From Trichocoleus sp. FACHB-46 (GTDB lineage Bacteria; Cyanobacteriota; Cyanobacteriia; FACHB-46), in assembly GCF_014695385.1 (NCBI RefSeq), contig NZ_JACJOD010000013.1:434001-498000 (forward strand): a DNA stretch of 64,000 bases, in the 5' to 3' direction. The position numbers and the translations under genes are program-made. Within the stretch, counting starts at the first letter, position 1; every line of letters begins with the position of its first letter. Under the pieces are notes generated by a model. That model saw nothing but the letters and a program-made list of their open reading frames with translations. It had not been told where the DNA came from and ran no database searches. This document shows positions 48,765 to 57,335 of this stretch, in pieces.

Positions 48765-48884
48765 CTGCTATCCTGCCAATATTCAGTGCTTACTGACTCA
48801 ACCAGCTACTTAGGCTCACGTAGCTCAACCATGACTAGATGCCGCCTATCTCCATCATTTTTGGATCTCTAAAAGGAAATCTTG

Positions 48885-50474
48885 ATGAACGCAGAGGAAC
48901 TCCTAAAAAAATACGGAGCGGGGACTAGAGAATTTATAGCGGCTGACTTACGTGAGGCTAATCTCAGTGGCGTCAACCTGAGCAAAGCGAACTTGAGTCA
49001 AGCGAACTTGAGTGTATCAAATCTCAGTGGCGCGAATTTGAGTGAAGCCAACCTGAGCCGAACCAAACTGAATGTGGCTAGGCTCAGTGGCGCGAATTTG
49101 ACCAAGGCTGACTTGAGCGGCGCTAACCTCAATGTCGCCAATTTAATTCGGGCTGACTTAAGCGGGGCCAACTTAACGCAAGCAGCGCTGGTGCGGGCAG
49201 AGTTGGTGTTAGCAGACCTGAGTGGTGTGAACTTAAGTCGAGCAAACCTGAGTGAGGCGAATCTACGCGAAGCTAAATTGCGTCAGGCCACATTGCTCCG
49301 GGCCAACCTCAGCTCAGCTGATTTAAGAAGTGCTTCTCTCACAGGGGCTACTTTAGAGCAAGCGAACTTACAAGGTGCGGATCTGAGTAAGGCAGACCTG
49401 AGTGGTGCCAATTTAAGTGGAGCGGAGCTGCGGCAGGCTAACCTGAATCAGGCCAATCTCAGCGGTGCTGACCTCAGCGGTGCGAATCTACGCTGGGCCG
49501 ATCTCAGCGGCGCTAAATTGCATGGAGCCGACTTGAGCGGGGCGAAGCTCAGTGGCGCTGATCTGAGCCGAGCAGATCTGAGCAACACCAATTTGATGAA
49601 TACCAGCTTGGTCTACGCAGACCTGAGTCAAGTGAACTTAATTCGGGCTGATTGGATCGGCGCGGACTTAACGGGTGCGACTCTAACCGGAGCCAGAGTG
49701 CATGCAGTATCCCGTTTTGGCATTAAAACCGAAGGAATTACGTGTGAGTGGATTGACCTGAGCCCAACAGGTGATCAGAGCCAAATTCATCGCTTTGCCG
49801 CTGAAGAACACAAGAAATTTTTCAAATCGACTCCGCCTACGGTGCAGGTGGTCATCGACGCGCCACTCAGCTCAGCAGGGCACTTGGCCTTAGCTGCGGC
49901 CTATCACCAAATTGCCCAGCACTGCAAAACGTTAGGCTCTCCTCCCAGCATTGATGTCGGTCGGCGGCGCACTACGCTTACCTTTGGCCTCAACGGTGAT
50001 GAACAACTGTTTGCGATCGCCTATGTGGCAATTTTGCCGTTTCAAGATGCCAAGACAGTGCGACAGCAAATCCTGGGGCTGCTAAATATGGTGCGATCGC
50101 AAGGCACTCAAGAGTTGAGCGTCAAGGAACTAGAGCGGCTAGAGCAGCTCAGCGCCGCCTTGACCCAAATCAGCCAGCAAACCGAAAAGATTCGGATTTC
50201 GCCACCTTTACCCAGCCAAGAACCAACGCCTGCCGAAAAGCCAGCCTTAGAGAGAGAAACTAACTTTTTTGCTGCGCCTACCCAAACCATTCTGACTAAT
50301 TCCAGCGATCGCACCCTTACCGCCTACTACCACCCCATGTTTGGCAAACGCTTTATGAGTCCTTCTAGCTTCGCTAAAGCTGGGTTGCAGAGCGCCACTG
50401 CCAATAAGCCAACTCTACTGCCCGTAAGCGTTGTGATCGATTTTCTCCGGGGATTCTATTACCTGGATCGTTAG
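48885..50474 (+). CDS. Long pentapeptide-repeat protein with a C-terminal domain
   Basis: After a short leader (MNAEELLKKYGAGTREFIAA) the protein carries about 45 tandem pentapeptide repeats of A(D/N)LSx type (roughly 18-285). These should form a long right-handed beta-helix. A distinct C-terminal domain (about 290-530) follows. Its first half, VQVVIDAPLSSAGHLALAAAYHQIAQHC and VGRRRTTLTFGLNGDEQLFAIAYVAILPF, is predicted mixed alpha/beta. The last part is Pro-rich, with TQTILTNSSDRTLTAYYHPMFGKRF and LPVSVVIDFLRGFYYLD. The start is ATG 48885 with AAAAGGA upstream. The partner and function are unknown. Confidence 0.85.
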   Translation: MNAEELLKKYGAGTREFIAADLREANLSGVNLSKANLSQANLSVSNLSGANLSEANLSRTKLNVARLSGANLTKADLSGANLNVANLIRADLSGANLTQAALVRAELVLADLSGVNLSRANLSEANLREAKLRQATLLRANLSSADLRSASLTGATLEQANLQGADLSKADLSGANLSGAELRQANLNQANLSGADLSGANLRWADLSGAKLHGADLSGAKLSGADLSRADLSNTNLMNTSLVYADLSQVNLIRADWIGADLTGATLTGARVHAVSRFGIKTEGITCEWIDLSPTGDQSQIHRFAAEEHKKFFKSTPPTVQVVIDAPLSSAGHLALAAAYHQIAQHCKTLGSPPSIDVGRRRTTLTFGLNGDEQLFAIAYVAILPFQDAKTVRQQILGLLNMVRSQGTQELSVKELERLEQLSAALTQISQQTEKIRISPPLPSQEPTPAEKPALERETNFFAAPTQTILTNSSDRTLTAYYHPMFGKRFMSPSSFAKAGLQSATANKPTLLPVSVVIDFLRGFYYLDR

Positions 50475-52338: not shown

Positions 52339-52378
52339 AAAAATCCCTGCGGTAACTTTAGAACCAGCAGGGATTTTT
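52339..52378 (+). terminator. Strong Rho-independent terminator
   Basis: AAAAATCCCTGC (52339-52350) and GCAGGGATTTTT (52367-52378) form a perfect 12-bp stem with a 16-base loop; the 3' arm ends in TTTTT. It ends the lipoprotein transcript about 75 bases after its stop. Confidence 0.9.
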
Positions 52379-52428
52379 AGCGCCTATGTCAGAATAAAGG
52401 TCACGCGGTAATCAAACGCTCCTGGCTT

Positions 52429-54036
52429 GTGATTGAAGTAGAAGTCCACCAGCAACTCCGTGCTTTCCTCCGAGAACAAGGTGAGCCTTACTGGCCCCAT
52501 CACTTGACGATGGGACGTTTGGTGGCGCGAGCGTTAAGACTTGGTCGTAGTGCCTTGATTCAAGCAGGCGCTCCTTCCGGTAGCCACGGACGCTACCGCT
52601 TAAGTTATTTGGTGCCCTTACTCATTTGGCCAGGTTCAGCCGTATTGGCGGTGCCAGAAGAAGTACAGCAACGCCTACTCATGGTCGAGATTCCGCGACT
52701 TCGGCAGTGGATTCAAACCCATAAACCCATTTTGACTGGCGATCGCTGGCCTGGGCTAGAGTTTCAAGGATTGCTCTTAACGACACCCGAAGAGTGGCTC
52801 AGCGATCGCTTAACCGATCAAAGTCGCTTTCCTCAAGGCATTCCTACCATCGTGGATGGCGTAGATGATCTGGAAGCTTGGGCGCAGAGCCAATTGACAG
52901 CCCGCCTAGAGCCGAGTCACTGGAATGACTTAATGCTGGCTCGTCCTGAGCAAGCAGAAGCCATTCGAGATGTGCGAGTTCAGCTAACGAGAGCGATCTT
53001 TCAGCACCCCGCCAATCCCTACGAATGCTACTTGGTTGAGTCAGAAGAACAAGAAATATTGCACGATCTCTTCAGGCAACTCAATGCAGGGCAAGCTTCA
53101 GTTCAGGAGACAGAGGCATCTGGTGAGCCGTCTAGTCTCGTTACCGAACTGAATCCTCCTCTACCTTCACCGACTCTGCCTGACGCTTGGAGCTATTTTT
53201 GGCAGCGATTGCAGAGCCCTGATCAGCTCGTTTGGGCGACGATCTCACGGCAGCACGGGCAATTTTCCTTGCACTGTGGCCCAGTTGATGTTGCCCCCGT
53301 CTTAGAGAAAATTTGGCCTCAACAGCCTGTAGTCTTAATTGGCGGTGCGCTCGATTTAGAGGCAGAGGCAACAATTTACCGCCAACGGCTGGGTCTGAAA
53401 GATTTAACCTGTCTGAAATTTGCTCCCGATCGCCAAAGTGAGTTAGTCCAGCTTTATTTACCAGATGGGCTTCCGATGCCCAACACACCTCAATTTCAGA
53501 CAGCTTTGCTCCAGGAAGTGCGAGCTTTGTTGAATATTAGCCTCACTGCTCCAGGCTTAACAGTGCTGCTAGTGGGGGATGTACCTTTAAAGGCCCAAAT
53601 CGGCTCGGTGTTAGCAGGAGAGTTTGGCTCCAGAGTTCAGGTGGAGAAGACTTGTCTGGATGACAACGGCATCTTAGTCACAGGCTGGGAATTTTGGCGG
53701 CAGTACCAGCATGTTTTGCCTGCACCGCATCTTTTGGCGATCGCAACCCTACCCATTCCCTCTCTAGAGCACCCGCTGGTGGCAGGTCGAGTAGCTTACT
53801 ACAAACGCCTGCGGCAAGATTGGTTTCGGCTCTACCTCTTGCCTACAGCGCTGAGTGAGTTGCAGCGGGCGATCGCGCCTGTGAGGGAGTGTCAAGGGGT
53901 AGTTGCGCTGCTAGATAACCGAGTTTTACATCGCAGCTATGGTCATCAAGTACTTGCTGCCCTCAGCCCTTTAGCTCGGATCAACTATCTCGACCCAGGC
54001 TTGTTTAACCAATCTGACTATTCGGTTTTGGACTGA
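52429..54036 (+). CDS. DinG/XPD-helicase-like protein with degenerate ATPase motifs
   Basis: This 535-residue protein (GTG start 52429, MIEVEVHQQLRAFLREQ) aligns in outline with superfamily 2 DinG/XPD-type helicases. The first block, LGRSALIQAGAPSGSHGRYRLSYLVPLLIWPG (38-69), sits where Walker A (AGTGTGKS) is expected, but no GK(S/T) is present. IPTIVDGVDDLEAW (138-151) replaces DEAH. The C-terminal block, LPIPSLEHPLVAGRVAYYKRLRQDWFRLYLLPTALSELQRAIAPVRECQGVVALLDNRVLHRSYGHQVLAAL, parallels DinG motifs V-VI; QGxGRxIR reads QRAIAPVR (479-486). It is probably an inactive paralogue that binds DNA or a protein partner. The alignment is by eye only, so a distant relationship is inference. Confidence 0.6.
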   Translation: MIEVEVHQQLRAFLREQGEPYWPHHLTMGRLVARALRLGRSALIQAGAPSGSHGRYRLSYLVPLLIWPGSAVLAVPEEVQQRLLMVEIPRLRQWIQTHKPILTGDRWPGLEFQGLLLTTPEEWLSDRLTDQSRFPQGIPTIVDGVDDLEAWAQSQLTARLEPSHWNDLMLARPEQAEAIRDVRVQLTRAIFQHPANPYECYLVESEEQEILHDLFRQLNAGQASVQETEASGEPSSLVTELNPPLPSPTLPDAWSYFWQRLQSPDQLVWATISRQHGQFSLHCGPVDVAPVLEKIWPQQPVVLIGGALDLEAEATIYRQRLGLKDLTCLKFAPDRQSELVQLYLPDGLPMPNTPQFQTALLQEVRALLNISLTAPGLTVLLVGDVPLKAQIGSVLAGEFGSRVQVEKTCLDDNGILVTGWEFWRQYQHVLPAPHLLAIATLPIPSLEHPLVAGRVAYYKRLRQDWFRLYLLPTALSELQRAIAPVRECQGVVALLDNRVLHRSYGHQVLAALSPLARINYLDPGLFNQSDYSVLD

Positions 54037-54156: not shown

Positions 54157-54369
54157 ATGGGTGATTCAAAGCGTCGCAAAGAAGCATTGGGAGAAAAATA
54201 CGGTCAAGAACCGAGCATCCTCTCTAAATTCTCATTCACAAAAAAGCAATCCGAACAATTCGTCAAATGGAGTTCTCAAGGCGCTTGGGTGGGGATTGGA
54301 CTGCTAGTTGCCTACTGGATAACGGTTCGTTTTATTGGGCCTAGCTTGGGATGGTGGCAAGTTAACTAA
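54157..54369 (+). CDS. DUF2839 family membrane protein
   Basis: This 70-residue protein begins MGDSKRRKEALGEKYGQEPSILSKFSFTKKQSEQF. One membrane helix follows (GAWVGIGLLVAYWITVRFIG), ending PSLGWWQVN. This is the pattern I remember for cyanobacterial DUF2839 (basic N-terminus MGxxKRRK, single helix, GWW end). The N-terminus should face the cytosol. A frame in another phase (54086-54307) is an artefact. Function unknown. Confidence 0.85.
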   Translation: MGDSKRRKEALGEKYGQEPSILSKFSFTKKQSEQFVKWSSQGAWVGIGLLVAYWITVRFIGPSLGWWQVN

Positions 54370-54798
54370 GCAATCTTAGTTAGTTCAAACCACTTAATTA
54401 ATGTGTTTTCAAGCACAATCTTTGTCCATTGATACAGATTGCAAATCAGGACTATATGAATCTCAAATCAATGATTGAGATTGTGTTCAAATTGCAAGCT
54501 TTGTATACATTCCGCCTTAAAACTACTTGTAATTTAAGTCAGTCCAAAGGCGGAATCTTATTGTTTGAGCTTGATTCACTATGAAAGAGTTCATCTAACT
54601 GTTGTACTGGATACTTCCTCAAATGAAGCCGTCCGTTAACCTGAGCAGGTGATGTTGGGAGCGCAAACTTGACTAAAAGAACTGGGCATTCTGAACAGTA
54701 GAGATCCCAACACCTGAAGATTGACTTCTTAGGAAAATCAAAATTCTTAAGAAAGTATAAAAAGGTCTAGAATGAGGTGTGGTGATTGGAGGACGAAC
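54370..54798. other. Intergenic region with two stem-loops
   Basis: About 430 bases without a gene. It contains AATCTCAA/TTGAGATT (54459-54466 / 54475-54482, 8-bp stem, 8-base loop). It also contains ATTCCGCCTT/AAGGCGGAAT (54509-54518 / 54547-54556, 10-bp stem, 28-base loop). Neither has the long T run of a classical terminator. They could be transcript ends of DUF2839, part of a long DUF1815 leader, or a small RNA. Confidence 0.45.
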
Positions 54799-55143
54799 GT
54801 GTTTCTAAGACTTGCAGAACAACACCGTCAATTTGTCCAGGACTTGGTTATGAGCTTACAAGCCCTGGCTACTGTACTCGAAAATCGAGGCTACCTAGCT
54901 TCTTGCTACACCTGTGGCGGGCAAATGAATAGTGCCTCCTTCATGGTGAGCTTGAGAGATAATCATTTAATCCGATTTTTGGTTTCTGACTACGGAATTA
55001 CCTGGACCGAAATGCGGGACGACCGGGAATTGATGAAGCTAGAGGGTGCTGAAGCCATTAGTCAGTTGCAAGAGTTGGCTAATCTAGTGAAATATCAAAT
55101 CAAACCAGCAGAGTACCGTCCGACTGTGGCTCAAGAAGTATAG
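54799..55143 (+). CDS. DUF1815 family protein
   Basis: From GTG 54799 (VFLRLAEQHRQFVQDLVM) the protein has 114 residues. A perfect GGAGG lies at 54786-54790, 8 bases before the GTG, so this start is preferred over ATG 54772. The segments ENRGYLASCYTCGGQMNSASFMVSL, LIRFLVSDYGITWTEMRDDRELMKLEGAEAISQLQELANLVKYQI match my memory of DUF1815, a cyanobacterial family of unknown function. A CYTCG pair of cysteines may be redox active or bind metal. It is soluble. Confidence 0.85.
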   Translation: MFLRLAEQHRQFVQDLVMSLQALATVLENRGYLASCYTCGGQMNSASFMVSLRDNHLIRFLVSDYGITWTEMRDDRELMKLEGAEAISQLQELANLVKYQIKPAEYRPTVAQEV

Positions 55144-56525: not shown

Positions 56526-57335
56526 ATGATTGATCCACGCTCTTGGGCTGCACAATCCTTGGGAATGATGACCCCTTTCACCGAGGCAGAGTTAGAACAA
56601 CGTTTAGGCTTGTATCGGGTTTTTCTCAAGCTTTATGAGCATCATCGTGATTTGCTCAATGAGATTTTAGAACTGGAGAACTCTGGTAAGAGCCATCCCT
56701 ATCAAGTCACGCTCCAATATGTTCAAGGGGTGGTGAGTGATGATCAGGTTCATTTAGTAACGAACTTAATTCAAGGAAATACCCAAGCCTTACTTCAGCC
56801 GCAACAGCTTTGGATCATTGGACGCGATCGCCATGCCGCAATCTCGATTCGAGATGAGCGCTTATCTCGGCGTCATGCTGTCATTCAATATGTGGCAGAC
56901 CAAGGGTTCTATTTAATCGATCTCGATAGTACTAATGGTTCTTTCATCAATGGGGAACGCATCTGGCACTGCGCCTTGCTCAAAGAAGGCGATCGTGTCC
57001 GTCTGGGCAGTTTGACGTTTACATTCTTTATCTGTCATGCGTCTCAGACCTTAGGCCCTGTGCCACCGCAAGTTCTAGAGCAGCTAGCGACACGTTGTAC
57101 TCACGATGGTGAAGCTAAGATTACAAAGACCGAACCAGAAGCAGAGATTCACTCAGAAAACTGGGAAAAGCCTTTGCCACCCGAAGTACACGAAACCTCC
57201 CGCTTTCTGCAATCCCATTGGTCTGACTACGGACCAACAGAGGTTGTTACAGAACCTATACAAAATCCACCCCGGCCTGCCAGCCTGCTAGAGCAGTTAC
57301 TTAGCCAAAAGCAAAAGCTCAGCGATTGCAACTAG
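56526..57335 (+). CDS. FHA-domain protein
   Basis: The 269-residue protein has an N-terminal helical region (1-65). A forkhead-associated phosphopeptide-binding domain follows (about 95-170): LWIIGRDRHAAISIRDERLSRRHAVIQY, FYLIDLDSTNGSFINGERI and LKEGDRVRLGSLTFTFFI. The conserved Gly-Arg, Ser-Arg-His and Asn-Gly residues for phosphothreonine binding are intact. The C-terminal 90 residues are Glu/Pro-rich and likely disordered. It should read a Ser/Thr kinase signal, and the partner kinase is not in the window. It is soluble, with no membrane segment. Confidence 0.9.
   Translation: MIDPRSWAAQSLGMMTPFTEAELEQRLGLYRVFLKLYEHHRDLLNEILELENSGKSHPYQVTLQYVQGVVSDDQVHLVTNLIQGNTQALLQPQQLWIIGRDRHAAISIRDERLSRRHAVIQYVADQGFYLIDLDSTNGSFINGERIWHCALLKEGDRVRLGSLTFTFFICHASQTLGPVPPQVLEQLATRCTHDGEAKITKTEPEAEIHSENWEKPLPPEVHETSRFLQSHWSDYGPTEVVTEPIQNPPRPASLLEQLLSQKQKLSDCN

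Follow-up and report, generated by a model that had tools for sequence, protein, structure and literature searches.

The gene at positions 52429..54036 (plus strand) of the analysed window, a stretch of 64,000 nucleotides from Trichocoleus sp. FACHB-46, encodes a protein that is strongly conserved and present in almost every cyanobacterium sampled; it has the look of a helicase, but is almost certainly none. Homology and fold searches revealed that it is a true homologue of the helicases DinG and YoaA, with a likeness far above chance, and that it is a member of the short-type subgroup 'sDinG' that was named in the review Cheng 2025 (PMC11981726). The status of sDinG as a non-motor protein is well supported, and its motifs indicate that it very probably has neither ATPase nor helicase activity. 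The sequence-only reading had described a helicase-shaped protein with degenerate ATPase motifs, and this description was supported by the fold match and by the loss of the motifs throughout the family. Two points go beyond it: the Fe-S domain is also missing, and the family had already been set apart by Cheng 2025.

The protein has a length of 535 amino acids, with a GTG start and a stop codon that ends at 54036. The annotated start is supported because the N-terminal sequence V/M-I-E-x-x-V-H is kept in nearly all relatives. The NCBIfam models for YoaA and DinG matched the Trichocoleus protein far below their cut-offs, with 72.8 bits (E 2.5e-20; curated cut-off 680) and 35.8 bits (curated cut-off 598), respectively, and the Pfam match to Helicase_C_2 (E 1.8e-4) was below gathering. 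With the single sequence, the best phmmer match in the PDB was E. coli DinG, with an E value of 0.008. The profile of 50 relatives (A1) was compared by hhalign with the profile of seven intact DinGs from sister lineages (A2), and they matched over nearly the whole length with 100% probability and an E value of 1.6e-45.

The predicted structure agreed with this assignment. The AlphaFold2 model (pLDDT 91.3, pTM 0.88) had the DinGs of E. coli and S. aureus as top Foldseek matches (E about 1e-20; 8.8e-21), and VIA-align gave Z scores of 34.1 across 504 residues for S. aureus DinG and of 32.0 for E. coli DinG with single-stranded DNA. Both programs showed the SF2 fold of the XPD/DinG type, with two RecA-like motor domains and an Arch insertion. 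The most divergent member that was modelled, a picocyanobacterial protein with 24% identity, had the same fold (pLDDT 88.5, Z 32.2). The predicted structure yielded a match to SF2/DinG over the whole length, in agreement with the sequence-only reading. The second motor domain MD2 (53224..53997, plus strand, about residues 266-523) is the most conserved part of the protein. The least conserved part is the shortened Arch domain (52909..53223, plus strand, about residues 161-265), which comprises about 105 residues with helices at 162-171, 173-191 and 205-223 and is more compact than in the aligned intact DinGs.

The catalytic motifs were analyzed in an alignment of 140 distinct sDinG sequences, to which the percentages of conservation refer. 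The reading frame and the motif letters that had been reported earlier were correct in all three cases: Q45-AGAPSGSHG stands at the Walker A site (motif I, Q45-R57, 52561..52599), D143-GVD at the place that is DEAH in intact relatives (motif II, 52855..52866), and Q479-RAIAPVR at the place of QGxGRLIR (motif VI, 53863..53886; all on the plus strand). At the place of the Walker A lysine, 84% of the sequences have Tyr, 9% have His and 6% have Trp; Lys was found in 0 of 140. The D of motif II is kept in 88% of the members, the E in 9% and the H in 1%. The family version of motif VI is QRAIAPxR, where A and P stand instead of GR; Q479 (90%), R480 (89%), P484 (93%) and R486 (99%) are highly conserved. 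Since the replacing letters are themselves conserved and the Walker A lysine is absent from all 140 relatives, the degenerate motifs are not the result of decay. At the place of the Q motif W22-PHHLT-M28 is found (52492..52512, plus strand), with W22 and H24 being family-specific and each conserved to 98%. Further family-specific conserved residues outside of the DinG motifs are E3, H7, R30, R34, R37, A396, G400 and R402.

The order of the DinG/XPD blocks is kept, as had been proposed, but the claim that their spacing is kept as well did not hold. The distance between motifs I and II is 84-89 amino acids in every sDinG examined (88 in Trichocoleus), versus 161-193 in every intact DinG examined. 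It is shortened because the Fe-S domain is deleted: the columns of the Fe-S cysteines are gaps, the domain has been cleanly removed in all sDinGs examined, and only a short remnant of residues 98-114 (52720..52770, plus strand) is present at its place. The Trichocoleus protein has none of these features of an active helicase: Walker A GK(S/T), DExH, QxxGR in motif VI and a cysteine-bearing Fe-S domain. In the model, the place of the P-loop is taken by a short extra helix of residues 48-53 (52570..52587, plus strand), which sits between the beta-1 strand (42-45) and helix 57-66 in the predicted secondary structure, and a comparable helix was seen at 46-49 in the picocyanobacterial model. An active, unorthodox ATPase or translocase, in which nucleotide binding does not depend on a classical P-loop, would be in line with the conservation of the first Asp of motif II and of R486 in the motif VI stretch. 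It is nevertheless highly improbable, because next to the lysine also the DEAH Glu (in about 91%), the GR of motif VI and the Fe-S domain are absent, a helix is predicted at the P-loop place, and ATP could not be placed by AlphaFold3 in the published model (PMC11981726, main text).

In its domains, its ATP-binding residues and its extra helix, the Trichocoleus protein agrees with the published subgroup. According to its main text, Cheng 2025 defines sDinG by having no domains besides MD1, MD2 and a compact Arch, by the absence of an Fe-S or pseudo-Fe-S domain and of ATP-binding residues, and by a helix alpha-3a, which is located between beta-1 and the next helix and blocks the ATP site (PMC11981726). 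The three domains, the missing Fe-S domain and ATP residues, the compact Arch and the extra helix, which corresponds to alpha-3a, are all shared. The same text lists sDinG in Nostocales, Chroococcidiopsidales and Pleurocapsales and calls its function unstudied. In the literature searched, no binding, ATPase or knockout data for sDinG were found, and also no papers that assign a function to a cyanobacterial DinG. DinG and YoaA of E. coli (b0799 and b1808) share with sDinG the fold of the whole chain, the block order, the P motif and a C-terminal D..R..YG block, and differ in that sDinG lacks the Walker A Lys, DEAH, the GR of motif VI and the Fe-S domain. XPD, the helicase subunit of TFIIH, belongs to the same fold class (Z about 20-28) and serves solely as a structural comparator; it retains its ATPase and the Fe-S cluster. 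CasDinG (Csf4) of type IV-A CRISPR systems shares the DinG fold (Z 30.6) and likewise lacks an Fe-S cluster, but, unlike sDinG, it is described as an active helicase in which the ATPase residues and a pseudo-Fe-S domain are retained (PMC11981726).

The distribution of sDinG is much broader than the orders listed in the published main text. It was found in 183 of 186 sampled Cyanobacteriia (195 of 386 genomes of the phylum had a match), including picocyanobacteria with genomes of 1.6-1.7 Mb. It also occurs in Gloeobacter-type genomes, in which an intact DinG is present as well. Compared with the main text of Cheng 2025, what is new is how widely sDinG occurs, how early it arose, that it coexists with an intact DinG, and how it is selected. 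sDinG is an unstudied core gene that is amenable to knockout in standard laboratory cyanobacteria. The genus g58 of family f27 (G195, G284 and G348) had no sDinG, also when a profile search was applied, and no intact DinG was detected in it. PsaJ is present in this genus, and g58 is a photosynthetic genus with a natural loss of sDinG, showing that sDinG is not indispensable everywhere. An assignment of f27 to Gloeobacter, based on the lack of sDinG, was rejected in view of PsaJ and because the Gloeobacter-type genomes of family f51 carry sDinG. The genome of Trichocoleus sp. FACHB-46 contains no other Helicase_C_2 protein.

The gene is under strong purifying selection, and the Arch is the looser part. 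The dN/dS values were 0.058-0.094 for the pairs computed, with saturated dS in most of them; the unsaturated pair G001-G002 had a dS of 0.224, a dN of 0.018 and a dN/dS of 0.082. Within the genus, the values were 0.024-0.028 for MD2, 0.035-0.044 for MD1 and 0.11-0.22 for the Arch stretch (residues 126-255). A decaying pseudogene or a misread frame could account for the degeneration of all catalytic motifs, but its probability is negligible, given these low values (about 0.06-0.09), the open frame in nearly all relatives, the presence in 183 of 186 Cyanobacteriia and the conservation of the degenerate letters. A decayed copy of an intact orthologue was likewise rejected, because none of the 140 sDinGs is intact.

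The sister lineages of the Cyanobacteriia within the phylum are non-photosynthetic, and they contain intact DinGs of 640 amino acids. In a second sample of 184 Cyanobacteriia intact DinGs were found in families f51, f57 and f58 and in one genome of family f54 (G398), and all of these genomes that were checked had an sDinG of 489-534 amino acids alongside. The view that no cyanobacterium has an intact DinG was therefore rejected; cyanobacteria other than the Gloeobacter-type lineages are generally without it. Three of the genomes (G395, G409 and G442) are presumably those of Gloeobacter violaceus, G. kilaueensis and Anthocerotibacter panamensis. In G398 (C27; L189, L205) the extra DinG has 687 amino acids, contains Walker A as well as motif VI, and occurs beside a normal sDinG; it groups with the DinGs of the Gloeobacter type and was possibly transferred.

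The sDinGs of these early lineages retain D-x-A-H at motif II (FDGAH, DRAH and DQAH), and one of them retains a part of motif VI (TRGVGRI), so that they look half-way decayed. Because genomes of the Gloeobacter/Anthocerotibacter type carry such an sDinG with a half-decayed DEAH beside an intact DinG, sDinG predates the cyanobacterial radiation. A tree separated sDinG from all DinGs by a branch with 100/100 support; the branches were very long, and the root among the DinGs was not resolved. All 15 sDinGs tested, including those of the Gloeobacter type, had their best scores with the DinGs of the sister lineages (64-129 bits), and scored lower with the intact DinG of the Gloeobacter-type genomes (at most 82 bits). 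The simplest reading, which is provisional in view of the long branches, is that sDinG descends from the old DinG of the phylum, and that the intact DinG of the Gloeobacter-type genomes would have another origin. The family offers a rare stepwise record of how a motor protein lost its motor function, and the earliest-branching lineages still have an active cousin.

Cheng 2025 describes sDinG as devoid of the DNA-binding residues of MD1, with a DNA site on MD2 that is partly retained (PMC11981726). Nucleic acid contacts known from E. coli DinG were mapped onto sDinG by sequence. The P motif L441-PIPSLEHP (53749..53775, plus strand) was located by alignment with E. coli DinG, in which the P-motif strand shapes the path of the single-stranded DNA (PMC6300356). 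In D464-WFRLYLLP (53818..53844, plus strand), F466 aligns with the DNA-stacking residue F638 of the E. coli protein (PMC6300356). These elements are extremely well conserved: P442, W465 and F466 are present in 100% of the 140 sequences, P472 is also invariant, and S445 and E447 are present in 98%. The C-terminal D..R..YG block of DinG is kept as well. Other contacts have changed: F615 and Y636, which also touch DNA in E. coli DinG, correspond to Ile/Leu (F in 7%) and Asp, respectively, and the region with the Fe-S-side contacts R117 and R211 is deleted. Binding of DNA may thus be weak or lost; the conserved residues tip the balance slightly towards a binding of nucleic acid by MD2. In the main text of Cheng 2025, AlphaFold3 placed DNA on MD2 only (PMC11981726).

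A role directed at RNA, i.e., the binding of R-loops or of structured RNA, is improbable. It would be analogous to DinG-family proteins of other bacteria, which are described as acting on R-loops and rRNA (PMC6300356), and the Ile/Leu at the place of the sugar-discriminating F615 could relax the selectivity for DNA, but F466, the other residue that stacks on the sugar, is invariant.

The proposed role of sDinG is that of an ATP-independent clamp or adaptor, a former helicase that was kept as a non-motor protein; the chances for this reading are about even. Before the cyanobacteria radiated, a helicase of the DinG/YoaA type would have lost its ATPase residues and the Fe-S domain in its entirety. 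The former ATP cleft would then have been filled and locked by helix 48-53 together with W22, H24, R30, R34 and R486, and the two motor domains would be held in one fixed arrangement. The secondary structure and the published model suggest that the cleft is probably locked. The conserved surface of MD2, with the P motif, DWF and the C-terminal D..R..YG, would bind single-stranded nucleic acid and/or a partner from replication, repair or transcription, and a role in genome maintenance has roughly the same chance of being right as of being wrong. For the evolution of the family a broader scenario is offered tentatively, and it is rather unlikely to be correct. Prior to the radiation, the ancestral DinG motor of the phylum would have become a fixed non-motor clamp, and this clamp a near-universal component of genome maintenance or gene expression in cyanobacteria; most cyanobacteria would later have dropped the active DinG, and half-way forms with D-x-A-H would have persisted in the Gloeobacter-type lineages beside an intact, separately derived DinG. 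The loss of the Fe-S domain may coincide with the start of oxygenic photosynthesis.

The clamp has to be weighed against a pure protein-protein scaffold, in which DinG would survive only as a shape, e.g., for the replication or transcription machinery or for a membrane partner like DUF2839, and nucleic acid is not contacted. The loss of the Fe-S-side DNA contacts and the ten family-specific residues outside of the DinG motifs are in line with a scaffold. It is still the less probable reading, although a serious one, because few residues of sDinG are as well conserved as the MD2 elements that touch single-stranded DNA in DinG. The neighbourhood was counted in 69 loci, weighted towards relatives of Trichocoleus. 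The gene for the small membrane protein DUF2839 (54157..54369, plus strand) lies downstream on the same strand in 51 of the 69 loci, which favours the scaffold, but this linkage is broken in many lineages. DUF2839 adjoins sDinG in picocyanobacteria and filamentous forms, is unlinked in several other lineages, and could not be found at a distance of up to about 6 kb from the Gloeobacter-type sDinG loci. It occurs in nearly all sampled Cyanobacteriia, including f27 without sDinG. The case for a strict functional partner was weakened by these results, and the broken adjacency allows a shared transcript at most. Essentially no literature on DUF2839 was found.

The sDinG gene has further neighbours. 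A DUF1815 gene (54772..55143, plus strand) follows downstream on the same strand in 39 of the 69 loci, and a prephenate dehydrogenase gene lies upstream on the opposite strand in 26. In marine picocyanobacteria (L158-L160 and L165-L167) sDinG has a fixed set of neighbours, namely genes for an FAD-dependent oxidoreductase of the carotenoid type and for prephenate dehydrogenase, and a recA gene in convergent orientation. An operon link to recA was rejected for these genomes, since recA is convergent downstream and belongs to a separate operon. A scan of promoters and terminators gave matches no more frequently than in shuffled sequences. Between the upstream gene and sDinG, at 52340-52379, a perfectly paired hairpin (AAAATCCCTGC...GCAGGGATTTTT), followed by a T tail, was observed, the loop of which is too long for the scanner. 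It is likely the terminator of the upstream gene, and, thus, sDinG probably starts its own transcript. Elsewhere in the window, a protein of 530 amino acids that contains many consecutive pentapeptide repeats is encoded at 48882-50474, and an FHA-domain protein is encoded downstream of sDinG at 56526-57335.
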